A DNA stretch of 64,000 nt from Candidatus Latescibacterota bacterium (GCA_022821085.1 JAJEEG010000002.1:434001-498000), one strand, 5' to 3'; counted from the first letter of the stretch, positions 5,073-39,053 are shown. Notes: generated by a model from the letters alone, not told the origin. A program made the numbers and translations.

Positions 5073-5829
5073 TCGATCCGCCGCTGGCGTCGCCGGCACG
5101 CCTGCCACCTCTGGCGCCCACGGCGTCGCTAGCGCCCCGGGCATCAGCGTTCGCCAGTTGACGAAGACTTACGGTCGTTTCCGGGCCCTGCACCGGGTGG
5201 ACCTGGAGGTGGCGCCGGGATCCTTTCTGGCCCTGTTCGGTCCCAACGGCGCGGGCAAATCGACCCTGCTGGGCATCATTGCCGGGCTCGTGCGCCCATC
5301 CCGCGGCCAGGTGTTCCTGGACGGCGAGGAAATCACGAAGGACCGCGACGAGAACCTGGGGAAGCGGATCGGCGCGCTATCCTACCAGACCTATCTCTAC
5401 GACGAACTGACCGTGCTGGAGAACCTGCGGTTCTACGGGAGACTCTTCGGGGTGGAAGACCGCGAAGAGCGGATCGAATCCCTGCTGAGCACCGTGGGCA
5501 TGGAGTCCAGGTCGGGCAGCCCGGTGCGGACGCTTTCGCGCGGCATGCGCCAGCGAGTAGCCCTGGCCCGCGCCCTGCTGCACGACCCGGATATTCTGTT
5601 GCTCGACGAGCCCTACTCGGGGCTGGACCAGGACGCGATGGTCATGCTCAAGACGGTCCTGACCGCCCGGAACAAGACGATCCTCCTGGTGACGCACGAC
5701 CTGGTCCGCGGACTGGAATCCGCCGACCGCGTCGCCATCCTGAACCGCGGCCGCCTGGTATTCGAGGCCGAGGCGCGCGAACTGTCCGCGTCGGATTTCG
5801 AACAGACCTACCGCGATCACGCGGTGTAG
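5065..5829 (+). CDS. ccmA: Heme exporter ATP-binding protein CcmA
   Basis: 254 aa. ABC ATPase with Walker A GPNGAGKS at 59-66, signature LSRGMRQR at 157-164, Walker B ILLLDEP at 177-183 and a switch His in LLVTHD. The domain itself begins near residue 26 (ISVRQLTKTYG). The first 25 residues are Ala/Gly-rich and not conserved, and the gene may start later. CcmA powers CcmB-CcmC in freeing holo-CcmE from the CcmCDE complex. The order ccmA-ccmB-ccmC-ccmD downstream makes the assignment firm over other ABC ATPases. Confidence 0.92.
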   Translation: MGDRSAAGVAGTPATSGAHGVASAPGISVRQLTKTYGRFRALHRVDLEVAPGSFLALFGPNGAGKSTLLGIIAGLVRPSRGQVFLDGEEITKDRDENLGKRIGALSYQTYLYDELTVLENLRFYGRLFGVEDREERIESLLSTVGMESRSGSPVRTLSRGMRQRVALARALLHDPDILLLDEPYSGLDQDAMVMLKTVLTARNKTILLVTHDLVRGLESADRVAILNRGRLVFEAEARELSASDFEQTYRDHAV

Positions 5830-26427: not shown

Positions 26428-28992
26428 ATGCGGATCAAACGGCATTTTATCCTGATTCCATTCCTGGTATGCTGCCTGTCGCCCCTTCACACTTCGAGTG
26501 CGCGCCAGGAGGCTTCCGCACGGATGGTGACGAGCGCGTGGCAGGAATCGGGTGAGCGGCAAGCGCCGTCCGCCCCGCAGAACGGCGATTCCCGCTTGCT
26601 CGTCGTCGACTACGCCATGGCCTATCCGGTAGCGCACGCCGGGATGATCCGCGCGTTCTCGGAAGCGGGGTTCGACGTCGACTACCGGCCGTATTACCCC
26701 GCCATGGTGGAACGGGACGCCCGGGATTACGACGCCATCGTGCTGCTGGGCGGCGGCGATCCGGGCATGAGCATCCAGGAAGTGGACCTGGCGATCAACT
26801 TCGTCTCGCGCGGCAAAGTGCTCATGCTGGCCATGCCTTCCGACGGACCCTACGGCGAAGGGAGGAAGGTCAATCCCGGCGTCCACGACCGGTACCAGTT
26901 CAACGAGGTCCTGGCCCGCCTGGATATCAACCTGCATGCGCTGAACGCCGACCATGAAACCGGTCCCGTCCTGAATCCCGTGGTGCATTTCGAATGGGCC
27001 GCCGGCCACCCGGCCGCACGGGGCCTGGACGGCAGCGTAGCGGTCCGCTCCGGTACCCGCCTGCTCGTAGGCGACGCTGCCGTACCGCTGCTCGTGGAAC
27101 CAGAAGGCGCGCCGCCCGGAGAGGAGATCGAAGCGGAACCCGCGCCGGAACCCGAATACCGCGTGGTCCGCAGGACCATGCGCATCCCGCCGGATGGCGC
27201 GGTGCCGGGGGAAGAGGTCGAGCTGCTGCTGCGCGGCGACCGGGAGTTGCGGCCCAGCCTGTACTACCGGAACCGGGAGCCCGTCCCGGTGGACTGGACC
27301 ACGGCGAGATTCAGGGGCAAGGTGGAAGTCGTATCGGACGCGAAGGACACGCTGACCGTGCGCATGTCCGGCAATCGCTGGGGATCCGAATACGCGCTGG
27401 TCGGCGTTCCGGTGGAGGTCATCGCCGCCGCCTTCGCCGACCGGGAGATCCGGGAAGAGATCCGGTCCGCCTCGGACCTGGCGTCCATGCGGGACGACGA
27501 AGAGACCTTCGGCCGCCTGGCGGTGGCTGCCGCGGGACGGACCGGGCGGCTGAACGAGGGATTCGTCCTGGCCGTGGACCGGCAGGTGCTGTCCGGACTC
27601 GACCGGGCCCAGCCGCCCTTGGGCATCCCGACCGTGGAAGCCGACCGCGAAGGACTCAAGCGTTTTCTGGGCGGGTTCGCGAGGTACGTCCGCGCGCTGG
27701 TCGATTCCCCCGGGGACTGGTCATCCGACCACACGTACGCCACGGCCCGGATGCCCGGGAACCGGAAACCGGATATCTCCCTCAACAACGTATCCGTAGG
27801 TACGGTAGTGCCCGAACGGGTCCGGGTGGTCCGTAGCGCGGCGACCGGTCCGGGCGCAGCCACAAACGCCGACTCAGTCTCCGACCCGGCCGTTGGCGCG
27901 GAGCCTGCCCCCCCTGCCGTCGCCCCGGCTGCCGGCGCGGAGGCTGCGGGCACGGTGGCTGCTCCGCTTCGAGGCGTATGGGATTTCGTCGCCAGGCGGC
28001 ATGAGCATATGGGCGATCTCGCCGGCATGCTGCCCGGCCTCGGAATGGATTTCCTCTGGACCGTGGCGCCGGCCGCCAGCTACACCGGGGGTACCGAAGC
28101 GACGGGCGACGTGCGCTTCGAATCGTGGGCGCTGCCCATCCTCAACCGCCTGGGGGGCACACAGACAGCCTGGTACGCCGGCGTCAGCGCCCCGCGCGAA
28201 CGCGAGATCACCGGCGACTACGAAGCCGCCCGGGACGCCCGGGGGGACGCGGTCGGCCTGCCCTCCCGGCTGGACATGGCCTACCTGAACCGGCACCTCT
28301 TCGAGCCGGCGCGCGCCATCGCCCGGCACAGCCGCGGCCAGCGGGCCCTGAAGGCCATCGTGCACGACTGGGAGCCCCATATCACGCGCCCCGCGGAGGC
28401 CTATGCCGCGACCGACGCCTTCGACGATCTGCATTTCCGGTACTTCGTCCGCCATCTCGTCCGGAACGGACTGTACCACGGCGACGAATTCAGGTCGCTC
28501 ATGGGGCTGGACCGGGAAGACCGGTTCGAGTGGCTGCTGAAATCGGGATACCTGGAGACCTACATCCAGCTCCAGGAAGCCAACGCCGAGCGCCTCGGTG
28601 TGCTCTACCGGCAATCCATGGACGAAATCAATCCGCTACTGCGCCACGGCGCCTTCGTCCGCTCCCTGCGGCCGGACTGGTTTCGCCTGGGCTTCTGGAG
28701 AGGCGCCGGCACGGCGGAACGTCCCTTCCTCGTGTTCTCCTACGAACGTCCGCCGGACTGGTATGCCGGATTCTTGCGCGACCAGGGCATCTCCGTCCGG
28801 GTTATCCCCGTTGGGCTCCTGGGCCTGATGAGCAGTGAAGATCTGCCGGATGTCTTGCGAAAGGCCGCCGAACGAGGCGGCTACGCCCTTGAGCGCGGCA
28901 TCTGGCTCGTCGCCGACCCGGGCGAGGAATCGGGTCTGAACACGCCTCCCGGGGGCTTGACGCGGGAAGCGCTGCTGGAGGCGGTGCGGTAG
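26428..28992 (+). CDS. Large secreted protein, GATase-like N-terminal part, function unknown
   Basis: 854 aa. Signal peptide about 1-25. Residues 53-190 look like a Rossmann/class I GATase-like fold (LLVVDYAMAYP...YDAIVLLGGGDPG...GKVLMLAMPSDG). Residues about 230-340 are beta-rich. A Pro/Ala-rich linker lies near 475-515. The last 330 residues are helix-rich, acidic and Trp/Tyr-rich (VHDWEPHITRPAEAY, LRPDWFRLGFWRG) and could be a glycoside-hydrolase-like or substrate-binding domain. I do not recognise a named family. It shares the idea of a secreted GATase-like domain with the gene at 10405-11655. It has its own promoter, and the regulator-kinase lies divergent, so that protein could control it. 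Confidence 0.6.
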   Translation: MRIKRHFILIPFLVCCLSPLHTSSARQEASARMVTSAWQESGERQAPSAPQNGDSRLLVVDYAMAYPVAHAGMIRAFSEAGFDVDYRPYYPAMVERDARDYDAIVLLGGGDPGMSIQEVDLAINFVSRGKVLMLAMPSDGPYGEGRKVNPGVHDRYQFNEVLARLDINLHALNADHETGPVLNPVVHFEWAAGHPAARGLDGSVAVRSGTRLLVGDAAVPLLVEPEGAPPGEEIEAEPAPEPEYRVVRRTMRIPPDGAVPGEEVELLLRGDRELRPSLYYRNREPVPVDWTTARFRGKVEVVSDAKDTLTVRMSGNRWGSEYALVGVPVEVIAAAFADREIREEIRSASDLASMRDDEETFGRLAVAAAGRTGRLNEGFVLAVDRQVLSGLDRAQPPLGIPTVEADREGLKRFLGGFARYVRALVDSPGDWSSDHTYATARMPGNRKPDISLNNVSVGTVVPERVRVVRSAATGPGAATNADSVSDPAVGAEPAPPAVAPAAGAEAAGTVAAPLRGVWDFVARRHEHMGDLAGMLPGLGMDFLWTVAPAASYTGGTEATGDVRFESWALPILNRLGGTQTAWYAGVSAPREREITGDYEAARDARGDAVGLPSRLDMAYLNRHLFEPARAIARHSRGQRALKAIVHDWEPHITRPAEAYAATDAFDDLHFRYFVRHLVRNGLYHGDEFRSLMGLDREDRFEWLLKSGYLETYIQLQEANAERLGVLYRQSMDEINPLLRHGAFVRSLRPDWFRLGFWRGAGTAERPFLVFSYERPPDWYAGFLRDQGISVRVIPVGLLGLMSSEDLPDVLRKAAERGGYALERGIWLVADPGEESGLNTPPGGLTREALLEAVR

Positions 28993-29077: not shown

Positions 29078-29356
29078 ATGCCGGGAATATCCGACGGCCC
29101 CATGCAGTTTGAAGAGGATCTGGAGCAAATCAGAGACGATATCAGCCGGATACGGGAGGACATCGACTGGATGAGTCAGTTCGGGCCGGCTTTGATGAAC
29201 ATCATGAACGAGCTCAGGACGATCAGGCGACTGATGGAAGTGCACATGGGAGAAGTAACCCAGGAGGAGTTGCTTGAGGAAGTAGAGGAGAACAAAAAGG
29301 AACTTAGGGCATTTGAAAGCGCGCACGAACAGAGACTGAAGATAAAAAGGGAGTAA
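29078..29356 (+). CDS. Small coiled-coil protein, unknown function
   Basis: 92 aa, highly charged and almost wholly helical. Heptads of Ile/Leu (EEDLEQIRDDISRIREDIDW, then LMNIMNELRTIRRLMEVH) predict a coiled coil. There is no signal peptide or membrane segment. A strong ribosome site GGGAGGT sits 6 bases upstream, and a textbook terminator closes the gene 45 bases after its stop. It is therefore probably a well-expressed single gene. No family was recognised. Confidence 0.7.
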   Translation: MPGISDGPMQFEEDLEQIRDDISRIREDIDWMSQFGPALMNIMNELRTIRRLMEVHMGEVTQEELLEEVEENKKELRAFESAHEQRLKIKRE

Positions 29357-29430: not shown

Positions 29431-29760
29431 TTGCAACAAAAAAAGATTTTCCGCGAGAATCGGAAAATTCCGAAGGACTAATCCATTTAGACCGCGCGGC
29501 AGATGCTGGATTCAGTTACCACATCAGGTCGAGTTTCCGTTTGACGATCGAAGCGCTCTCGGAACCGCGCACTCCGAGACCTGTAACCGAGTTCCCTGGT
29601 ACCAGCGCAGGAAATGAGGTCCGCATCGAAGGAGAACGGAGGATGGAACCTGAATCAATGAGGAAAGGAGGCTGACGAAATACCAAATACGTTCGCAGGT
29701 AATACCACACACGTTCGTTACACGTTCGATCAAACCGTAAATCGAGGAGTACAGATCATC
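29431..29760 (+). promoter_or_regulatory. Upstream control region of the glycine-zipper peptide genes
   Basis: 330 bases without a sizeable gene. It holds a dyad ATTTTCCG-7-CGGAAAAT at 29446-29468. Close to the first peptide gene there are three copies of ACGTTCG at 29689-29695, 29711-29717 and 29722-29728, spaced 22 and 11 bases apart and so on one face of the helix. A possible 10-codon frame (29643-29675) precedes them. No standard -35/-10 pair stood out, so an alternative sigma factor or an activator is possible. Confidence 0.45.
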
Positions 29761-30039
29761 ATGAAAAAGCTTATTCTCTCCGTATTCATGTTCGCCATGA
29801 TCGCAAGCGCAAGCGTCAACTCGACGGCCAACGCGTCGATGGCTAAAACGCCCGGTGTCATAGCGACGCCGAACCTGATCTACTGCCTGTCTATGGAACA
29901 TGCGGACGTGAGAAAAACATCTGCCGGTGTAGGCGGTACTGTATTAGGCGCCTGGGCAATTAAAGCTGGATACGGCGTTGCCATAGTCGCGGGATGGACA
30001 GGTGTCGGGATAGTCGGAGGGCTTGCTCTCGGTTACTAG
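29761..30039 (+). CDS. Glycine-zipper peptide precursor A (bacteriocin-like candidate)
   Basis: 92 aa. Residues 1-25 form a Sec signal peptide (MKKLILSVFMFAMIASASV...ANA, A-x-A cleavage). The remaining 67 residues have a polar stretch with one cysteine (Cys42 in LIYCL) and a C-terminal hydrophobic part with glycine-zipper spacing (GYGVAIVAG..GVGIVGGLALGY). Ribosome site GAGGAG is 10-14 bases upstream. A paralog follows 108 bases on. Size, export signal, membrane-active composition and the DUF95 gene downstream suggest a pore-forming antimicrobial peptide, possibly processed or circularised. That role is inference. A structural surface peptide is the alternative. Confidence 0.7.
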   Translation: MKKLILSVFMFAMIASASVNSTANASMAKTPGVIATPNLIYCLSMEHADVRKTSAGVGGTVLGAWAIKAGYGVAIVAGWTGVGIVGGLALGY

Positions 30040-30147
30040 GACATACGTTCAGGCGAAGTGGCGAGAAGGCTGACTGCATTTCAAAGACGATCAACGAATA
30101 ACCAAACAGGTTCGATTTAAACCAACATTCGAGGAGTACAGACTATC

Positions 30148-30429
30148 GTGAAAAAGCTCATTCTCTCCGTGTTCATGTTCGCCCTGATCGCGGGCGCAAG
30201 TGTCAACTCGACGGCCAACGCGCCGGTCTCCGAAACATCCGACATCGCCATGCCACAACTGGTTTACTGCTTGACGAATTCAGAAGCAGTTCAGCACGCG
30301 TCAGGTGCAGGTGCAGCCGCTGGTGCAGCCGCAGGTGCATATTGGGCTATTAAACTTGGATATGGCCTCGCCGCAGTTGCAGGCATATCGGGTGTCGGGT
30401 TAATTGGAGGGCTTGCTCTCGGTTACTAA
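30148..30429 (+). CDS. Glycine-zipper peptide precursor B, paralog of A
   Basis: 93 aa, GTG start with the same GAGGAGTACAGA ribosome site as its neighbour. The signal peptide is nearly identical to that of peptide A (MKKLILSVFMFALIAGASV...ANA). The core shares the single cysteine (Cys41 in LVYCL) and the end AIKLGYGL..VAG..GVGLIGGLALGY, but has an Ala-Gly-rich insertion (SGAGAAAGAAAGA) where A has VGG. Constant leader and tail with a variable middle is common in two-component or multi-copy bacteriocin precursors. A strong hairpin follows the stop and may limit readthrough into the processing genes. Confidence 0.7.
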   Translation: MKKLILSVFMFALIAGASVNSTANAPVSETSDIAMPQLVYCLTNSEAVQHASGAGAAAGAAAGAYWAIKLGYGLAAVAGISGVGLIGGLALGY

Positions 30430-30442
30430 GCCCGGAGGTTAA

Positions 30443-30472
30443 GGGGAAGGGGGACATGTCTCCCCCTTCTCC
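30443..30472 (+). terminator. Strong hairpin after the peptide genes, possible attenuator
   Basis: GGGGAAGGGGGA (30443-30454) pairs with TCCCCCTTCTCC (30461-30472) over 12 bp with one G-T pair and a 6-base loop. It lacks a T run, so it is more likely a partial terminator or mRNA-stabilising hairpin than a full stop. Confidence 0.55.
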
Positions 30473-30561
30473 GGTACACCTGGATGAACATGCTATAGGA
30501 TTAGATTGTATACACGCTCGCACCCTCAATATGGACTCGAATACCATCCGGAACCATCGCT

Positions 30562-31140
30562 ATGACTGCTAACGCATACCGCCTTAACAAGCTACCATTT
30601 CTTCTCGCTGTGTGTTGTATACTGGCCGGTTTTTTTGTCGGCAGTTCAATACCCATTGATGCGGGATCTGCCAGCATGCCGGACCATCCTTCCGAGTCGA
30701 ACGCCCTGCCAATTCGCGGATTCCTGGATGGATATGATGAATGGGAATTGATCATTGGAGCGAATATAAGGGTCTGCGTTAATCTTCTGATCGGGCTTCT
30801 GTCGCTTGGATACATGAGCATGCTTAACCTGGCCTGGATCGGGCTCAGCTTCGGATGGGCCGTCCAATCCGCGATAGAATCCGGCATGTCGAGCCATAAA
30901 CTGGCCGCGCTGACATTGCCTCATGGATTGTTGGAACTCGGTGGATTCGCCATGGTAGCGGCTGTGGGTTGCGAAGGGTTCGCCTTTGTGTATAGAAAGC
31001 TGAGATTCGATGTATGGTCTTTCGGTTGTGACAGGCTGTCATTGAATCTCCGAAGGCTTACGGCAGGACTTTGTTTAGTACTTGCAGCCTCGATTGTGGA
31101 AACCTACATAACCGGCCAGATTGCAGCCAGGTTCAATTGA
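30562..31140 (+). CDS. SpoIIM/DUF95 family membrane protein
   Basis: 192 aa with about five membrane helices. A first helix at 13-30 is followed by an extracytoplasmic loop. The core ANIRVCVNLLIGLLSLGY...NLAWIGLSFGWAVQSA, then LPHGLLELGGFAMVAAVGCEGF, is the DUF95 (SpoIIM) signature. DUF95 proteins are a constant member of circular bacteriocin gene clusters in Gram-positives (AS-48, carnocyclin and others), where they help maturation, export or protection. They also occur elsewhere without bacteriocins. Directly downstream of two peptide genes, the bacteriocin role is the better reading. It is followed by a second membrane protein 10 bases later. Confidence 0.75.
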   Translation: MTANAYRLNKLPFLLAVCCILAGFFVGSSIPIDAGSASMPDHPSESNALPIRGFLDGYDEWELIIGANIRVCVNLLIGLLSLGYMSMLNLAWIGLSFGWAVQSAIESGMSSHKLAALTLPHGLLELGGFAMVAAVGCEGFAFVYRKLRFDVWSFGCDRLSLNLRRLTAGLCLVLAASIVETYITGQIAARFN

Positions 31141-31150
31141 AGGAACGATT

Positions 31151-31786
31151 ATGCACAACCCCAGTTGGACTGTTGCCAGAATCTCGTCGATCGGAAGTGC
31201 ACGGTCGGTATGGATCGGCATCGGTGTATTTGTAACCTACCTGATAGCAAACGTACTCACCGTGGTTTTAATGTTCAGAACCACCATCGATCAGATTCCG
31301 GAACACCTGGCCAGCGCATACGCGCAGGTGTTGACGATTATGCAAATCAGCACGTCGGCGGGGGTCTTGTTCGGCGACATCATCACATTGGTGCTGGGTT
31401 GGGTGTTCATCGTGATCGCTGTAACGCTAATGAGCGGACGGCGGAGTTACCGTGCATTGTTCGGCTGGTTATGTATCGGACACCTTCCGCTCGTCGTGTA
31501 TTCTACGTGTTTTGCCGTACTGTTGGGCTTGTTTTCCGACGTTTTGGCCTATAAGGGGTTGGCTTCTATTGCCACAATAGACCAGTTGCCCATAGAATTG
31601 GCCAAAATGCAGGATACCGGGTGGTTCGCATGGATCCGCTATGGGCGCTACCTGGCGTACGCATTTACCCTGGCTTTCGCTTGCGAAGCGGTACACCGAG
31701 TGAATGCGTTGCCCCGGCTGAGGTCTATCGGGATTCTGTCGGCCTATGCATTCATACATGTGTTCATAACGATGTTTGTTTCTTAA
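31151..31786 (+). CDS. Polytopic membrane protein in peptide locus, Yip1-like?
   Basis: 211 aa from ATG 31151, preceded by GAAGGA. Five hydrophobic helices are seen with short loops and a lone extracytoplasmic loop around 130-155. The general build resembles Yip1-type proteins, but no motif is decisive. Spacing of 10 bases from the DUF95 gene and 24 bases to the M48 peptidase gene argues for one operon. It may be a transporter part or an immunity protein. I cannot name its function. Confidence 0.6.
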   Translation: MHNPSWTVARISSIGSARSVWIGIGVFVTYLIANVLTVVLMFRTTIDQIPEHLASAYAQVLTIMQISTSAGVLFGDIITLVLGWVFIVIAVTLMSGRRSYRALFGWLCIGHLPLVVYSTCFAVLLGLFSDVLAYKGLASIATIDQLPIELAKMQDTGWFAWIRYGRYLAYAFTLAFACEAVHRVNALPRLRSIGILSAYAFIHVFITMFVS

Positions 31787-31810
31787 CGGACAAATGAACA
31801 GCAGGTTTTA

Positions 31811-32737
31811 ATGAACAATCCCAAGTGCGAGCGTGACGCCGTCGACAGCCTGCCGGACAAACAGGGAGCGATCCGGTTGACCTGGCGTGATAAACTGGTG
31901 GAGTTTGGACTCGATGCGTGCATGATGTTGACATGCATGTTCATCGCGGTCGCCGTGTTTGTTTGTATTTTCCTCTCAGCGTTTGATCTGGTCGAAGAGG
32001 CGGCTCCGGGTCTTACAGACAGGAGATCCTTTGCAATCATCATCTTAGTCGTCTTTTCGGCTGCCGCAGGGAACGCCTGTGCTTATCTGTGTTTCCCTTA
32101 TCTGACTCGTTTCATCTTTCGTGGATATGAGTTACAGGATGATCGTCTGGTCCGGTCGGTCAGGATACTGATGGCAAACACCGGAATGGATATCACAGCG
32201 GAAACCTTGTATGCCATAAAGGGAAGGACGGCCAACGCGATGGTTTCCGGTCTTTTTAGAAAAGCCCGTTACATCTTCTTTACCGACAAGCTTCTGGAGA
32301 GGATGGACGAGGAGGAAATCCTGGCGGTTTTCGCTCACGAATTGGCACATATTCGTCACAGACACCTGCCCAAGATGTTGCTGGCGTCGATTCTGTGGAT
32401 TTGCGTGTATCAGATCGTCTTGTATCTGATCGATTTTAATTCCTATTACGATGCTCTTGACGAGTCCATGAAATTCTGGGCGTCCGGTCTGATGGGCGGC
32501 GTGAACGTATGGCTGACTATGCTTCTTGTCTTATTGCCTCTATCACGGAGGAACGAATACGAAGCGGACGCCACGGCTGCAGAATGGGTGGGAACGGAGC
32601 GTTACCAACGGGCTCTTTTTCGTCTGCATCAACTTAATGACAGATTAAAGCCGCCTTCGAGATTTGCTAAAGTGCTTCTGACCCACCCCACTCTGCAAAA
32701 CCGCCTCGACCGTGTCGCACAGTTGAACTCGAAATAG
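31811..32737 (+). CDS. M48 family membrane metallopeptidase A (HtpX/Ste24-like)
   Basis: 308 aa. Two N-terminal helices (about 37-60, 74-96), a zinc site HELAH at 176-180, two further helices (about 190-210, 228-245), and the third ligand Glu251 in NEYEADATA. The pattern AKGRTANAMVSGLFRKARYIFFT-like stretch before the motif is typical of M48B. It should cleave membrane or exported peptides at the inner membrane. Here the likely substrate is one of the two peptide precursors or misfolded copies of them. A clear paralog lies at 37227-38222 on the other strand. Confidence 0.88.
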   Translation: MNNPKCERDAVDSLPDKQGAIRLTWRDKLVEFGLDACMMLTCMFIAVAVFVCIFLSAFDLVEEAAPGLTDRRSFAIIILVVFSAAAGNACAYLCFPYLTRFIFRGYELQDDRLVRSVRILMANTGMDITAETLYAIKGRTANAMVSGLFRKARYIFFTDKLLERMDEEEILAVFAHELAHIRHRHLPKMLLASILWICVYQIVLYLIDFNSYYDALDESMKFWASGLMGGVNVWLTMLLVLLPLSRRNEYEADATAAEWVGTERYQRALFRLHQLNDRLKPPSRFAKVLLTHPTLQNRLDRVAQLNSK

Positions 32738-32774
32738 TTGAGTTTTTATCAAATGAGAAGGAAACCCCTCTACA

Positions 32775-33977
32775 TTGAAACTTCTTCGATTTTTGGTTTT
32801 GACGGCGCTTTGCGTTCTGCTCGACCTGCGCTTCGCGTCGCACGGGGCGGTGCCGGACTCCCTGGCGCTGTCCGAATTCGCCCGGATCATGACCGCGTTC
32901 TCCGAAAAGCCCGGTCACTTCCCGGGGGACAACTTCGTTACGAATGAAACGTCCTATCTGCACGTCGTTCCTACGGTTATCGAACTGGGCAAACGCGGCG
33001 GGGTCTATATCGGCGTCGGTACGGAGCAGAACTTCTCCTACATAGCCACGTCGAGACCGGATATCGCTTTCATCGTCGACATCCGTCGCGAGAACCTGCT
33101 TCAGCATCTCCTCTACAAAGCCCTTTTTGCCCTGGCCCGGGACCGAACGTCCTTCCTGGCGCTGCTGTTCAGCCGACAGCACCGGGAGGGCGAAACGGCT
33201 GTGACCGGACGACCGGAACGCACGGCCGCCATTACCGAAGTCTTGGATTACATTGAAACGTCAACCACGGCCGACTCCCTGCTCTTTGAAGAAAACTGGA
33301 AGCGGCTCCGGCGGGAAGTCAGGCGGTATGGGATCGAAGACCGGGACGATCTCGACAAGATGCTTTACATCTACCGGTCGTTTTACGAAAAACAACTTTC
33401 GATCCGGTACGCCGAAACCCGCCTGGGAAACGGCCTGTCCTATCCGACGTTCAGGGAGCTGATGGCAGGCACGACGAAAGAAGGGGATTTCGCCAGTTTC
33501 CTGAGTACCGAAGATGCATTCGGGTTTGTGAAGCACCTGCATCACAGGAACCTGGTCATTCCCGTCGTGGGGAACTTCGCGGGCGGGAAGGCGCTGAGGG
33601 CCATCGGCACTTTCGCTGAAGTCCACGGCACGAGCGTATCCGTTTACTACGTGTCGAACGTCGAGTACTTCCTCATAAATCACTTCTACTACGTGTTCAA
33701 ATGGTACGTCGCGAATGTCGACGCGCTTCCGATCGATGAGCACAGCCTGATGATCCGTTCCTACCTGGGCGTGGAATCCCATCCCAGGAGAGTGGGCCGG
33801 CATCTGTCCACGAGCACGGCGCACCACATCAGCACGTTCCTTGAGAGTTACAGGCGGGGTGCGTATACCCGTACGAAACCGGTCTGGTGGAGGTTCTGGC
33901 CCTGGGACAGTCCATACTGGTCGGGCGGCGGACACAGCTACTACCACCTGGTCATCATGGGAGATCTATGTCCATGA
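32775..33977 (+). CDS. Secreted or anchored protein of unknown function (VGTEQNFSYIA type)
   Basis: 400 aa, TTG start with GAAGGAAA upstream. A hydrophobic leader (about 1-24) suggests export. Conserved-looking blocks are NETSYLHVVPTVIELGKRGGVYIGVGTEQNF split around the middle, AFIVDIRRENLLQHLLYKALF, and NFAGGKALRAIG. The layout of a glycine loop, an acidic VDIR strand and a later acidic loop is reminiscent of Rossmann-type methyltransferase folds, though an exported methyltransferase would be odd. Similar proteins in other phyla are uncharacterised. The next gene starts 10 bases before its stop, so it belongs to the same transcript as the Yip1-MacA-MacB set. Confidence 0.6.
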   Translation: MKLLRFLVLTALCVLLDLRFASHGAVPDSLALSEFARIMTAFSEKPGHFPGDNFVTNETSYLHVVPTVIELGKRGGVYIGVGTEQNFSYIATSRPDIAFIVDIRRENLLQHLLYKALFALARDRTSFLALLFSRQHREGETAVTGRPERTAAITEVLDYIETSTTADSLLFEENWKRLRREVRRYGIEDRDDLDKMLYIYRSFYEKQLSIRYAETRLGNGLSYPTFRELMAGTTKEGDFASFLSTEDAFGFVKHLHHRNLVIPVVGNFAGGKALRAIGTFAEVHGTSVSVYYVSNVEYFLINHFYYVFKWYVANVDALPIDEHSLMIRSYLGVESHPRRVGRHLSTSTAHHISTFLESYRRGAYTRTKPVWWRFWPWDSPYWSGGGHSYYHLVIMGDLCP

Positions 33978-34699
33978 GCGCTTCCACAGATCTGGTAAGA
34001 TATGCCGGGCGATGGCTCCAGGTCTTCTACAGGCCGGGGAAGGCCTTTGCGGATCTAGAATCAGGACAATCCACCGCCGAGTGGATGTCGGTGCTGATCC
34101 TGGTCATGTCGGTCGTCCTTTGCGCCGGGATAGTCACCTTGCCCGTTGCGCTGAATGCGGAAAGGGCGTTGATCGAGACTGAATTCCAGTCCTATTCGGA
34201 TCTGAGTGCAGATCAACATTCCCTCATTCTACGCGAGGCCGTGCAATTCGACCATCGTCAGCTCATCGGACTTCTGGTCATGCCCGCCAGCGTTTGCTTC
34301 ATGGTCGCAGCGTGGTCGGTGGTGGGAAAACACTGCGGTGAATTGATATTCGGCAAGCCGCTGCCGTACGGCAAGGTCCTTCCGATAACCGGCTATGCCT
34401 CGCTTGTCCTCGTACCCGAAACCATCGTCAAGACCGCGCTTGTGTTGCTGTCCGGTTCGCTCGATCCTCCCATCCATCCCGGTCTGTTTCTCGATGACGC
34501 GGACCCCGAAACCCTTTGGATACTGTTTCTGCCAGGGGTCGATTTCTTCGGAGTCTGGTTTCTTTTCCTGCTGGGACTCGGCCTGGCGCGGACTTTCCGG
34601 GGATCGGCGACGCTCGCCTGGCTCGTGCTGGGACTGGTGTGGGGCATATGGATTGTCATTCGCAGGACGATCGAGCTGCTCGGAACGGTATACGTATAG
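33968..34699 (+). CDS. Yip1 family membrane protein (YknW-like)
   Basis: 243 aa from ATG 33968, with GGAG five bases upstream, overlapping the previous gene. The start RYAGRWLQVFYRPGKAFADLE and five following helices are typical of Yip1-domain proteins. In Bacillus, the Yip1 protein YknW works with the adaptor YknX, the ATPase YknY and the permease YknZ in protection from the SDP killing peptide. Here the adaptor and permease follow directly, 20 and 21 bases apart, giving the same order without an ATPase. A role in peptide export or self-protection is inferred. Confidence 0.7.
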   Translation: MSMSASTDLVRYAGRWLQVFYRPGKAFADLESGQSTAEWMSVLILVMSVVLCAGIVTLPVALNAERALIETEFQSYSDLSADQHSLILREAVQFDHRQLIGLLVMPASVCFMVAAWSVVGKHCGELIFGKPLPYGKVLPITGYASLVLVPETIVKTALVLLSGSLDPPIHPGLFLDDADPETLWILFLPGVDFFGVWFLFLLGLGLARTFRGSATLAWLVLGLVWGIWIVIRRTIELLGTVYV

Positions 34700-34719
34700 C
34701 TTCAGGGAACCAATTGGTC

Positions 34720-35934
34720 ATGAAAAAACGGTTAGTCATTGCCGGTGTGTCGGTCTGCGGCCTTGTCGCCGTTCTGCTGTACGTGGTTTTCAGTTCCACG
34801 GCTCGGGATGCCACGTTTGAGATCCTCCAGGTACAACACGGACCGATCTCGGAGATCCTGGCGGAGACGGGCACGATTCAGTTCGTCAGGACCGTCATGG
34901 TCAAGCCCACGGTTTCCGGGGAAGTCAGACATATTTACGCCGATGTCGGGGACCGGGTATCAGCGGATGACGTGCTTGCCGTGATAGAGCCGGACCCGTC
35001 CCAGTCCCTTCAGTTGTCCCGGCAGCGTGCCCGGGTGGACGGCGCCCGGATAGATCTTTCAGAAAGGGCGTTGAACTTCGAGCGTAAACGCGAGCTTTAC
35101 GAGCGGTCCCTGATATCGTCCGAGGAATTCGACCAGGCAAGGATCGCACACACCAGGGCCCGTCACGATCTCGACATGGCGGAGCTGGAACTCAGGATTC
35201 TGGAGTTGAAGGTGAACGTCGAGGTGGATTCGAACAAAACGCATGGTGCCGTGCGGGTCCTGTCGCCCCTGGACGGTATCGTCATCGCCCGCACGGTGGA
35301 GGAGGGTGAGGTCGTGGCATCAGGCACCTCGTCGTATACCGGCGGCACGGAGATGTTCCGGATCGGCGATCCGGACCGGATGATCGTCAAATCGGCCGTT
35401 GGAGAGATAGACGCCGGAAGGGTCAGGCCCGGACAGGACGTGCGGATCCGTGTAGATGCCTACCCGGACGCGATGTACCGTGGACGGGTGGAGCGCGTCG
35501 CGCCTGTCGGTGTGCGCAGCCCCGGCAGCACGCTGGTCACGTTCGATGCCGAGATCGTGATATCGGATCCATCGATGGAATTGCAGCAGGGCATGTCCTG
35601 CGATATCGACATCGTGGTGGAGAAGAACGACCACTCGGTGCTGGTGCCCGTTTCTTCCGTCATGGAAATGGCCGACTACAGAGGTACAGCCATCGAACAG
35701 AACGATCCGGCATCGACCGGATCGGCGCCCGGCAGGCGGTACATGGTCTATCGTTGCACCTCGGGGGACCCCGAATTGCAGAGGTGTCCGGAAGCGTACC
35801 TGGAATCCACCATGGTCGAGATCGGTATCGAATCAACCGAAAACGTGGAGATCCTGTCCGGTATCGAACCCGGCGCGCACATCGCACGGGATGCCAAAGC
35901 GGTTCATGCCGCGCTGAACGCGAAACACCCTTGA
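34720..35934 (+). CDS. MacA/HlyD-type periplasmic adaptor protein
   Basis: 404 aa from ATG 34720 (MKKRLVIAGV). One membrane anchor (6-25), a first lipoyl half (VSGEVRHIYADVGDRVSADDV), a long alpha-hairpin (about 95-160, rich in Arg, Glu and Leu), the second lipoyl half (VLSPLDGIVIARTVEEGEVV) and beta-barrel domain (IVKSAVGEIDAGRVRPGQ). This is the order of MacA and YknX. It would form the periplasmic tunnel over an FtsX-type permease. The following gene is that permease. The coding sequence is of the island's lower GC. Confidence 0.88.
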   Translation: MKKRLVIAGVSVCGLVAVLLYVVFSSTARDATFEILQVQHGPISEILAETGTIQFVRTVMVKPTVSGEVRHIYADVGDRVSADDVLAVIEPDPSQSLQLSRQRARVDGARIDLSERALNFERKRELYERSLISSEEFDQARIAHTRARHDLDMAELELRILELKVNVEVDSNKTHGAVRVLSPLDGIVIARTVEEGEVVASGTSSYTGGTEMFRIGDPDRMIVKSAVGEIDAGRVRPGQDVRIRVDAYPDAMYRGRVERVAPVGVRSPGSTLVTFDAEIVISDPSMELQQGMSCDIDIVVEKNDHSVLVPVSSVMEMADYRGTAIEQNDPASTGSAPGRRYMVYRCTSGDPELQRCPEAYLESTMVEIGIESTENVEILSGIEPGAHIARDAKAVHAALNAKHP

Positions 35935-35955
35935 CCTCAAAGGATCCGGTCGTCC

Positions 35956-37179
35956 GTGTCCATAACGCACCATATCCAGACCGTGTTTGCCAATCTCGCG
36001 CACTACCGGCTGCGTTCGGTCCTGACGCTGCTGGGGGTTTCGGTCGGCATCGGCGCCGTAACCGCCATCATCGCCATCGGCGAAGGACTTCACGACATGG
36101 TGATGGAGGAATTCGAATCCGTGCGCGGCGGCACCATGGTGTGGGTGAGTCCATCGAGATTCGTAAACCGGGATGGGCAGTGGCTCGCGGTACCGGATTA
36201 CGAGCATCTCGTCTGGCAGGACGTGCTGGAAATCAGCAGAAGGTCGAACGCCGTGCGACAGGTGGTCCCAGCCGCGACGCTGAACGCGGATCTCAGGTAT
36301 GCGAAAACATCCTATGGCGGGATGGTGTACGGCACGACGCCATCGTTTCCGGACTTGTACCAATGGCCGGTCTCCATGGGGCGATTCATTATCGACCGCG
36401 ACGTAATACGCTGGCGCAAGGTATGCGTGCTGGGCGATGAGCTGGCAGCTGCGCTGTTCGACGATGCCAATCCGGTCGGCAAGGAACTGAAACTGAATGG
36501 TCAGCGGTTTGCCGTGATCGGTGTCATGCAGCCAAAGACGGTTTTCAACGAGAGCTGGGGAAACCGGGTCTTCGTTCCGATTACAACGGTCCAGAAACGA
36601 ATGCTCGGCCATGAAGGCTTCGATCTTCTGTCCATCAAGGTGCCGGATTCACGTGTTATGGACCGTGCGGTGGGCGAAATCGAGGCAGCCTTGAAGTCTG
36701 TCCATGGTGATGAGGCCGGATTCGACATCGTCAGTGGGAAAGACGCCATGGACCAGATCGGAGGTGTGATCAACGCCGTTAAATCTTCGATTGCCGCCTT
36801 AGCGGGTATCTCGCTGTTGGTGGGTGGAATCGGGATCATGAATATGATGTTGGTCTCCGTCACTGAACGTAGACGGGAAATAGGCATCAGGAAGTCTGTA
36901 GGGGCGAGACATGTCGATATCGTGAATCAATTTACGCTGGAAGCCACATGTATCAGCGCTTTAGGCGGATTACTGGGGATATCGCTGGGACTTGGCCTCG
37001 GTTCTGTTTTCTCGTTTGTCCTGAATCAGATGTGGGACCTTGCTTTCACGAGCGGAGCTTCGGCTTCGAATATCCTCGTGTCGCTGGCGATTTCACTGGC
37101 CATAGGCCTTTGCGCCGGTATCTATCCGGCCTTGAAGGCATCGCAGTTGAGCCCGGTGGACTCGATGAACCAGGAGTGA
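35956..37179 (+). CDS. MacB/FtsX-type ABC permease without ATPase domain (YknZ-like)
   Basis: 407 aa, GTG start. The first helix is preceded by LAHYRLRSVLTLLGVSVGIGAV, the MacB_PCD periplasmic domain spans about 45-265, and three C-terminal helices carry the FtsX domain with GGIGIMNMMLVSVTERRREIGIRKS, typical of MacB/YknZ. There is no Walker motif at the N-terminus, unlike E. coli MacB, and no separate ATPase gene is found within the locus. It must borrow an ATPase encoded elsewhere. It is the last gene of the plus-strand peptide locus. Confidence 0.9.
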   Translation: MSITHHIQTVFANLAHYRLRSVLTLLGVSVGIGAVTAIIAIGEGLHDMVMEEFESVRGGTMVWVSPSRFVNRDGQWLAVPDYEHLVWQDVLEISRRSNAVRQVVPAATLNADLRYAKTSYGGMVYGTTPSFPDLYQWPVSMGRFIIDRDVIRWRKVCVLGDELAAALFDDANPVGKELKLNGQRFAVIGVMQPKTVFNESWGNRVFVPITTVQKRMLGHEGFDLLSIKVPDSRVMDRAVGEIEAALKSVHGDEAGFDIVSGKDAMDQIGGVINAVKSSIAALAGISLLVGGIGIMNMMLVSVTERRREIGIRKSVGARHVDIVNQFTLEATCISALGGLLGISLGLGLGSVFSFVLNQMWDLAFTSGASASNILVSLAISLAIGLCAGIYPALKASQLSPVDSMNQE

Positions 37180-37226
37180 ACCTGAAAAACCCGAACGGAT
37201 CGGCTGCGGAACGCACCAACCGCGTA

Positions 37227-38222
37227 CTATCCAAGGCTCCCCACCCGCTCCAGCCTCTCCTGCAACGTCGGATGGGTGCCTAGTTTCGCCAGGAACTTCC
37301 GCGGCGGTTTCAGCTGGTCGTTGATTTGATAAAGCCGGTAAAGGGTCTGCTTGTACAGGCCTGTACCCACCCACAGGGCTGCGGTCGCGTCCGCCTGGTA
37401 CTCGTTCCGCCTCGAAAGCGGGAACAGGACGAGGAACATAAGCAGGTATAAGTTAGCTAAGTTTATCCCTAAATATACTCCCATTTTCCAGGGTTCTTCG
37501 AGCGAGTCGAAGTAGGCATAGTAGTCGATCAGGCTCAGGAATACCTGGAAGACGAGGGTCCATATCAAGAGAACCAGGAATATCATGGGCATGTGCCGGT
37601 GCCGCGCATGGGCCAGTTCGTGCGCCAGGGCCGCCATGATCTCTCCTTGGCTCATTCGCTCCAGAAGCCTTTTCGTGAAGAAGATACATTGTGCCTTACG
37701 GAAAAGGCCGGACACGACGGCGTTGGCCGTCTTGCTATTTATGGCGTAGATTTTATCGGCCCTGATATCCATCCCGGTCACGGATATCAGGTGCTTCACG
37801 GCGCGGCCCATCCGCTGGTCCTGCAACTCGTTGCCGCGATAGAGCAGACGAATGATGTAGGGCGCGCAACTGAACGAACAGACATTGCCAATGGCCACGG
37901 CCACGACGATCAGGATGATAAACGGAATCGATCCAGCCTCCGTGGATCCCGGCGCCCACTCCTCCAGGGTACTACGCAAGGCGATTATAGCAGCAAAGAA
38001 GACCAACATCCCGATCAGCGTACCGGCCATGGCCATGACCATCGTCAGGCCACCTTCGACCAGCTTCTCGCGCCAGTTCAGCCGGATCGTATCGTCAACG
38101 ACCCGGTCCGCCTGCTGCGGGCCGTCCACCTCGTCTGCCCGGTCCGCCTTGTGCGCCTGGTCCCGGCCGTCTGCAGGGGGCCGCTCGTCTTCCTTTGGGT
38201 AGTCTTGTCCGGCATTTTGCAC
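37227..38222 (-). CDS. M48 family membrane metallopeptidase B, paralog of A
   Basis: 331 aa with GTG start at 38222, chosen because GGGAGGT lies 5-6 bases upstream on the minus strand. A hydrophilic leader with ADRADEVD-type repeats (about 20-45) precedes the same core as peptidase A: two helices, HELAH at 201-205, two helices, and NEYQADATA. The two enzymes share the blocks TANA.VSGLFRKA and RHRHMP/RHRHLP. It converges on the permease gene with 47 bases between stops. Having a second copy facing the locus suggests duplication within the system, with division of labour between precursor cleavage and immunity or quality control. Confidence 0.88.
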   Translation of the reverse strand: MQNAGQDYPKEDERPPADGRDQAHKADRADEVDGPQQADRVVDDTIRLNWREKLVEGGLTMVMAMAGTLIGMLVFFAAIIALRSTLEEWAPGSTEAGSIPFIILIVVAVAIGNVCSFSCAPYIIRLLYRGNELQDQRMGRAVKHLISVTGMDIRADKIYAINSKTANAVVSGLFRKAQCIFFTKRLLERMSQGEIMAALAHELAHARHRHMPMIFLVLLIWTLVFQVFLSLIDYYAYFDSLEEPWKMGVYLGINLANLYLLMFLVLFPLSRRNEYQADATAALWVGTGLYKQTLYRLYQINDQLKPPRKFLAKLGTHPTLQERLERVGSLG

Positions 38223-38549
38223 GTTTAACCTCCCACTGTGTGCATCGAAGAAGGATGGGCAGTCAGGACCTTGCTTCCGGTGCCCGGGTTCATACATTCC
38301 GCCCGTGTAAATTAGATTCGATAAAGTATATTGCCACGAAAGACAAACGTGTGCAAGTCGTTTATTGCAGGAGGCCAGGGCGGGGGCCCGGTCACGCGGC
38401 CACAATCGCTTGACACGAGCCGTTTTTTGCCTCTTTGTCATGGGTGCCGGTGCCCGCGATAAACACCATCGTGCGGCTGGCGGGTAAATGGTCACGACGG
38501 GCGCCTTGATCATGGCGGGCACCTTGGATCGAGCCGGGGAGCGCCACGC
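38223..38549. other. Divergent intergenic region, peptidase B / methyltransferase
   Basis: 327 bases. It includes an A/T-rich patch (38305-38350) probably serving peptidase B, and TTGACA at 38410-38415 facing right but without a good -10. No gene recognised. Confidence 0.45.
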
Positions 38550-39053
38550 ATGAAATGGACCACTGCGAAGGCCGTCGTCCTCCTTCCGGCGGCGGCTACG
38601 ATCTACGTCCCTGGCCTGATACTGTGGGTATTGGCCGATACACCGGGCGCACTGTCACCGGCGGAGCCCAACCAGTTCCGCTTCTGGATCGGGATCGCGA
38701 TGGCGCTGGACGGCCTGGTCGTGACGGCGTGGACCATGACGCTGTTCGACCGGATCGGCAAGGGCACGCCGGCACCGTGGGCCCCGCCCGAGAAGCTGGT
38801 CGTCCTCGGCCCCTACCGCCACGTGCGCAATCCCATGAATTCGGGCATGCTGCTCATACTGGGCGCCGAAGCCCTGCTCTTCGGCTCATGGCACCTGGCG
38901 GGCTGGATGTGCGTGTTCTTCGCAGTGTGCGCGATCTACTTCCCGTTCTACGAGGAACCGGGCCTCGAGCGCCGGTTCGGTGAACCCTACCGGCAGTACA
39001 GGGCAAGCGTACCGCGCTGGATTCCGAGGATACGGCCGTGGGAAGGGCCGTGA
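38550..39053 (+). CDS. Isoprenylcysteine carboxyl methyltransferase-type (ICMT/PEMT) membrane protein
   Basis: 167 aa with four helices. The AdoMet motif GPYRHVRNPMNSG and the later EEPGLERRFGEPYRQYRASVPRW are shared by ICMT, phospholipid N-methyltransferases and NnrU-like proteins. A GGGAG ribosome site precedes ATG 38550. The substrate is not known. Bacterial members methylate lipids or small molecules. It begins a plus-strand run that includes the multiheme cytochromes, but a functional link is not evident. Confidence 0.8.
   Translation: MKWTTAKAVVLLPAAATIYVPGLILWVLADTPGALSPAEPNQFRFWIGIAMALDGLVVTAWTMTLFDRIGKGTPAPWAPPEKLVVLGPYRHVRNPMNSGMLLILGAEALLFGSWHLAGWMCVFFAVCAIYFPFYEEPGLERRFGEPYRQYRASVPRWIPRIRPWEGP

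Follow-up and report, generated by a model that had tools for sequence, protein, structure and literature searches.

What does a small exported, glycine-rich peptide do in a bacterium that encodes it beside a DUF95 membrane protein and two membrane metallopeptidases? The locus that raises this question lies in the 64,000-nucleotide stretch JAJEEG010000002.1:434001-498000 (the window) of a Candidatus Latescibacterota genome of 3.75 Mb. It begins with two peptide genes, pep1 and pep2, followed by genes for a SpoIIM/DUF95 protein, a Yip1-like protein (YipA), an M48 peptidase (M48a), a DUF7790 protein, a Yip1 protein (YipB), a periplasmic adaptor and a permease, and closes with a second M48 peptidase (M48b). 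An earlier note had described it as a bacteriocin-like locus. All genes named there were found in place, including two paralogous precursors that share a near-identical signal peptide, one cysteine and the ending GGLALGY. The ‘membrane protein’ and the ‘unknown’ of that note are real genes as well, and they are now identified as the weakly Yip1-like YipA and the DUF7790 protein. Comparison with related genomes indicates that the peptide is exchanged between species together with three of its partner genes, and it is from this pattern that we approach the function.

Peptide Precursors

The genes pep1 (29761..30039, plus strand) and pep2 (30148..30429, plus strand, with a GTG start) encode precursors of 92 and 93 amino acids that are 61% identical. 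With putative boundaries, the precursors consist of a 25-amino-acid signal peptide (residues 1-25 in pep1), a conserved pro-segment of about 17 amino acids that ends with PNLIYC in pep1, and a hydrophobic core of 48-57 amino acids. The cores have a charge near neutral and contain 18-33% glycine, with GxxxG spacing as judged by eye. Mean amino acid identity across the genus is 90% for the signal peptide, 62% for the pro-segment up to the conserved cysteine and 44% for the core. The ratio of nonsynonymous to synonymous substitution rates (dN/dS) is about 0.15 for the signal peptide, which indicates purifying selection, and 0.5-0.65 for the core, which by this measure is much less constrained than the signal peptide. 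Since the precursor frames are conserved in 13 genomes and their signal peptide is under purifying selection, they are not chance open frames.

The species of the window has two peptide genes, and a single one was found in every other genus member, 11 genomes in all. The pair is therefore a local duplication and does not define a two-peptide design. Synergy of two peptides was rejected as a defining trait, and a two-peptide toxin is not supported. The common GGLALGY end may mean that both peptides are fitted to one shared partner.

Genes That Vary with the Peptide Core

The three genes downstream of the peptides encode membrane proteins. SpoIIM (30562..31140, plus strand) has 192 amino acids and about four hydrophobic segments, and it passes the Pfam cut-off for PF01944 (2.5e-8; 34.5 bits against a cut-off of 26.9). 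YipA (31121..31786, plus strand) matches PF04893 (0.0011) and NCBIfam YknW_fam (0.0098), neither of which reaches its cut-off, and M48a (31811..32737, plus strand) is a metallopeptidase with an intact HExxH motif. Pairwise identities show that all three proteins differ strongly between some species in which the flanking genes are nearly alike. Between G000 and G008, the DUF7790 protein is 92% identical, SpoIIM 44% and YipA 46%; between G011 and G009, SpoIIM is 82% and the DUF7790 protein 79% identical. In most of the genus the identity of the DUF7790 protein is about 90%.

Mantel tests on 10-12 related genomes gave correlations with the distances of the peptide core of r 0.92 for YipA, 0.86 for SpoIIM and 0.75 for M48a, compared with only 0.22-0.52 for the DUF7790 protein, YipB, the adaptor, the permease and the upstream gene. 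When DUF7790 was held constant, the partial correlations with the core were 0.90 (YipA), 0.83 (SpoIIM) and 0.68 (M48a), and the partial correlation of core and DUF7790 given SpoIIM was 0.09. M48b was considered as a further specificity partner and ruled out, as it correlates with the flanks (r 0.77) rather than with the core (0.32). A tree of SpoIIM and YipA conflicts with a tree of the flanking proteins at strongly supported branches. In an approximately unbiased (AU) test, the cassette data rejected the clade of the flanks with p 7e-9, a value that is optimistic because the clades were picked after inspection of the trees. Since divergence of the core follows SpoIIM, YipA and M48a and not the flanks, and since the trees conflict, peptide, SpoIIM, YipA and M48a form an exchanged allelic cassette, which is swapped between species as one unit.

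If the peptide were a weapon or a signal paired with fitting self-protection, one would expect just such a swapped unit in fixed surroundings. An exchanged cassette whose partners match would be expected equally if the peptide were a secreted pheromone or kin-recognition signal, of which different types are processed or sensed by SpoIIM, YipA and M48a and which kills nothing. The occurrence of one system per genome, in every member of the genus, also suits such a signal. However, neither a histidine kinase nor a regulator was found in the locus, the very hydrophobic and glycine-rich peptides are closer to membrane-active peptides, and sets of Yip1, adaptor and permease are known to give immunity in bacteriocin clusters. 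We therefore consider a signalling role quite unlikely.

Distribution and Synteny

Titles of related records read Candidatus Latescibacterota or Gemmatimonadetes bacterium, and several records carry isolate names that we take to refer to marine sponge hosts (Ircinia, Aplysina). The peptide is present in 12 of 12 genomes of the genus. Wherever the contigs extend, which is the case for most loci, the locus has the same neighbours: an 854-amino-acid protein is encoded upstream, and genes for a PEMT-like protein and for cytochromes follow downstream. The earlier note was right that the guanine-cytosine (GC) content is low (0.52-0.59, against about 0.64), but the accessory island that it read from this is not borne out: all members of the genus share the site, which rules out a recent low-GC island.

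A single genome of a second genus of the family, whose run accession is presumably that of an ocean survey, encodes peptide, SpoIIM, YipA, M48, DUF7790 and YipB in preserved order. Its peptide homolog (L041:2656-2952) is 28% identical and keeps the PNAVYC segment and a glycine just before the end. Of the 16 genomes of the phylum, 13 have both peptide and SpoIIM, and the other three have neither. In a wider search of 384 genomes, no true homologs of the peptide or of SpoIIM were found in the 368 outside the phylum. A match to the peptide profile in G062 (4.5e-4) was rejected, because the protein is cytochrome c-like and resembles the precursors in its signal peptide. In genomes of other phyla, four weak SpoIIM matches with open frames of 322-396 amino acids were also set aside because they look like the generic SpoIIM family. 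A search for a plasmid relative of SpoIIM found none, and a PHROG search gave no match. The system thus looks confined to one lineage. Peptides that are widespread without the neighbours were not seen in either the 16 genomes of the phylum or the 368 others, and the proposal that they form one conserved unit with their neighbours holds.

Such constancy could also point to a housekeeping module of the envelope, in which SpoIIM, Yip1 and M48 proteins would assemble or quality-control small glycine-zipper membrane proteins with no role in competition. The locus is genus-universal and occupies a single site with conserved DUF7790, YipB, adaptor and permease genes, and M48/HtpX enzymes are classic quality-control peptidases of membranes. 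However, a conserved leader combined with a variable core is unusual for housekeeping genes, and so is an exchange in which four adjacent genes pass between species and their flanks do not. On balance a housekeeping role seems unlikely.

Comparison with Known Peptide Systems

A precursor, DUF95 and an ATP-binding protein are common to all clusters for circular bacteriocins, some of which also have Yip1 and an ATP-binding cassette (ABC) trio (PMC8534725); an M48 peptidase occurs in two such clusters of one survey (PMC8659200). The claim that parts like those of the present locus had not been reported together is thus overstated. Like the clusters of AS-48, circularin A and cerecyclin, the locus has a small hydrophobic precursor adjoining DUF95/SpoIIM, an order kept in 13 genomes. 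Yip1 with adaptor and permease is also common to both, and some circular bacteriocin clusters have two precursor genes. Unlike these clusters, the locus has no ATP-binding protein, has a Sec signal peptide, DUF7790 and two M48 peptidases, encodes precursors of dissimilar sequence and belongs to a diderm phylum. The leaders of known circular bacteriocins measure 2-48 amino acids. Since both the ATPase and the similarity of the precursors are missing, the locus is not to be filed as a circular bacteriocin, although it may work like one.

A true, head-to-tail cyclized bacteriocin cluster that has diverged in a diderm would account for the position of SpoIIM/DUF95 next to the precursor, the Yip1, adaptor and permease genes, the hydrophobic core, the occasional duplicate precursor genes and the M48 peptidase. 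Against it stand the ATP-binding protein of all reported clusters, which has no counterpart here, and precursors that match no known family. Moreover, a Sec signal peptide points to maturation beyond the cytoplasm, but cyclized mature leucocyclicin Q is reported to build up inside the cells when DUF95 is removed from its cluster. We consider this explanation very unlikely.

The order of a Yip1 (YknW-like) protein, a MacA-like adaptor and a MacB-like permease is shared with the self-protection transporters YknWXYZ and As-48EFGH. The Yip1 protein grouped with the adaptor and the FtsX-type permease matches YknW_fam at 5.3e-6, below the cut-off. Although Yip1, adaptor and permease are there, a YknWXYZ set is not supported, since the YknY-type ATPase is missing from the locus. 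The permease lacks the ATPase domain of MacB, and the locus of the second genus is also without adaptor and permease.

The SDP toxin of Bacillus subtilis is a hydrophobic peptide cut from a Sec precursor by signal peptidase, and YknWXYZ protects against it. Unlike the SDP system, the present locus gave no SdpA, SdpB or SdpI in domain searches, and its peptides have a single conserved cysteine instead of a disulfide pair. We know of no peptide weapons in this bacterial phylum, and searches of open-licence papers turned up no bacteriocins reported from sponge Latescibacterota. The Cdz system of Caulobacter (PMC5380434) is similar in its small glycine-zipper peptides (84-93 amino acids) and diderm origin. 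It differs in that the present peptides have Sec signals, that Pfam and NCBIfam searches found no type I secretion system genes in the locus to correspond to the type I exporter of Cdz, and that there is mostly one peptide gene per species.

Proposed Function

The locus is real, conserved and unusual, and is a new relative of the DUF95-type bacteriocin clusters. We give an even chance to the reading that it is a bacteriocin-like system of a diderm, in which a small Sec-exported, glycine-rich and membrane-active peptide is made with dedicated partner proteins. This reading, already put forward in the earlier note, fits the conserved signal peptide, the variable core and the co-exchange of SpoIIM, YipA and M48a. 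The precursor would take the Sec route, with signal peptidase cleaving it after residue 25 or so, and a second cut, probably by M48a, would follow near the conserved PNxxYC segment. Because they are co-exchanged with the core, and because of the role of DUF95 in circular bacteriocin clusters, SpoIIM and YipA would be the membrane specificity partners that handle the mature peptide in maturation, export or self-protection. YipB, the adaptor and the permease may assist in a general way, clearing or exporting the peptide with an ATPase borrowed from elsewhere in the genome.

Several observations weigh against a bacteriocin-like system of this kind. Firstly, pep1 and pep2 match no bacteriocin family at E <= 1 in Pfam or NCBIfam, and family searches returned nothing for the precursors beyond trivial signal-peptide scores. 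An immunity gene could not be identified in the locus by homology. Secondly, family searches in Pfam and NCBIfam and a motif check found no ABC ATPase in or near the locus, and the single ABC-type Walker A motif of the window is far away, at position 5239. The locus of the second genus lacks the adaptor, the permease and the second M48 peptidase, and a close ortholog of the permease was not found elsewhere in that genome (the best matches are about 31% identical). Thirdly, positive selection on the core was considered and is unsupported, as dN/dS is below 1 and relaxed constraint suffices. The reverse AU test, of the flank data against the clade of the cassette, gave p 0.064, which is only suggestive and also comes from clades picked post hoc. 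Lastly, the AlphaFold models are too poor to interpret, with predicted local distance difference test (pLDDT) scores of 32.6 for the DUF7790 protein and 51.5 for the peptide.

More tentatively, we propose as possible, though on the doubtful side, that glycine-zipper peptide weapons of diderms routed through Sec and matured by M48 form a new family, so far seen in a sponge-associated and marine lineage. In such a family SpoIIM and the Yip1-like protein would be type-specific, and the block of peptide, SpoIIM, YipA and M48 would be swapped while the helpers stay fixed. No peptidase that removes the leader of circular bacteriocins is known so far (PMC8534725, PMC8659200). The exchange of the cassette among 12 genomes serves as a natural experiment, which marks three genes as those that have to match the peptide, namely the genes of SpoIIM, of the Yip1-like protein and of an M48 peptidase, and places DUF7790, YipB, the adaptor, the permease and the second M48 peptidase outside that set. 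This prediction of specificity partners makes the roles of these genes testable.

Genes Outside the Cassette

The DUF7790 protein (32775..33977, plus strand; PF25046 at 1.7e-35) has a signal-like N-terminal segment and follows the flanks rather than the cassette. Its one distant relative with a solved structure is 6ulo, an uncharacterized protein. A DUF7790 paralog (about 41% identical) lies elsewhere in the same genome, at G000:C1:1198549-1199547 (L040:8400-9587), adjoining a ComM-like ATPase gene, and DUF7790 is therefore not specific to the system; such paralogs were seen in most relatives examined. YipB (33968..34699, plus strand) is a membrane protein that scores above the cut-off of the Yip1 family (1.7e-7), and its start was inferred from the alignment. 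The MacA/HlyD-type periplasmic adaptor (34720..35934, plus strand) also has an inferred start. It is followed by the MacB-like permease (35956..37179, plus strand; 407 amino acids), which has MacB_PCD and FtsX domains. M48b (37227..38297, minus strand) is a membrane peptidase encoded convergently, with an uncertain start. The two peptidases score 8.7e-29 and 9.1e-23 for the M48 family, and HExxH is present in M48b as it is in M48a.

The upstream 854-amino-acid protein (26428-28992) has a signal-like start and no Pfam match, and is conserved across the genus. A coiled-coil-like open reading frame of 92 amino acids (29078-29356) is present in several genus loci. Just past M48b lies a PEMT/ICMT-like membrane methyltransferase (38550-39053), which is retained in most genus loci. 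A Ste24-like M48 peptidase adjoining an ICMT-like gene recalls the maturation of prenyl-peptides, which is probably a coincidence.

Hairpin and Repeats Around the Peptide Genes

A strong hairpin without a T-run directly follows the last peptide gene in every genus locus examined; in the window it has a perfect stem of 12 bp (30443..30472, plus strand). Alignment of the genus loci shows compensatory changes, as five of eight hairpin pairs are altered on both sides with pairing kept. The hairpin probably stabilises the mRNA or acts as an attenuator, and would hold the peptide transcript above those of the downstream partner genes. Shortly before the peptide start, a repeated ACACGTTCG motif at 29690-29735 (two copies; three in L056) precedes a conserved GAGGAG ribosome site. 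By eye the motif also occurs upstream in L053-L060, and it is a possible regulator site.
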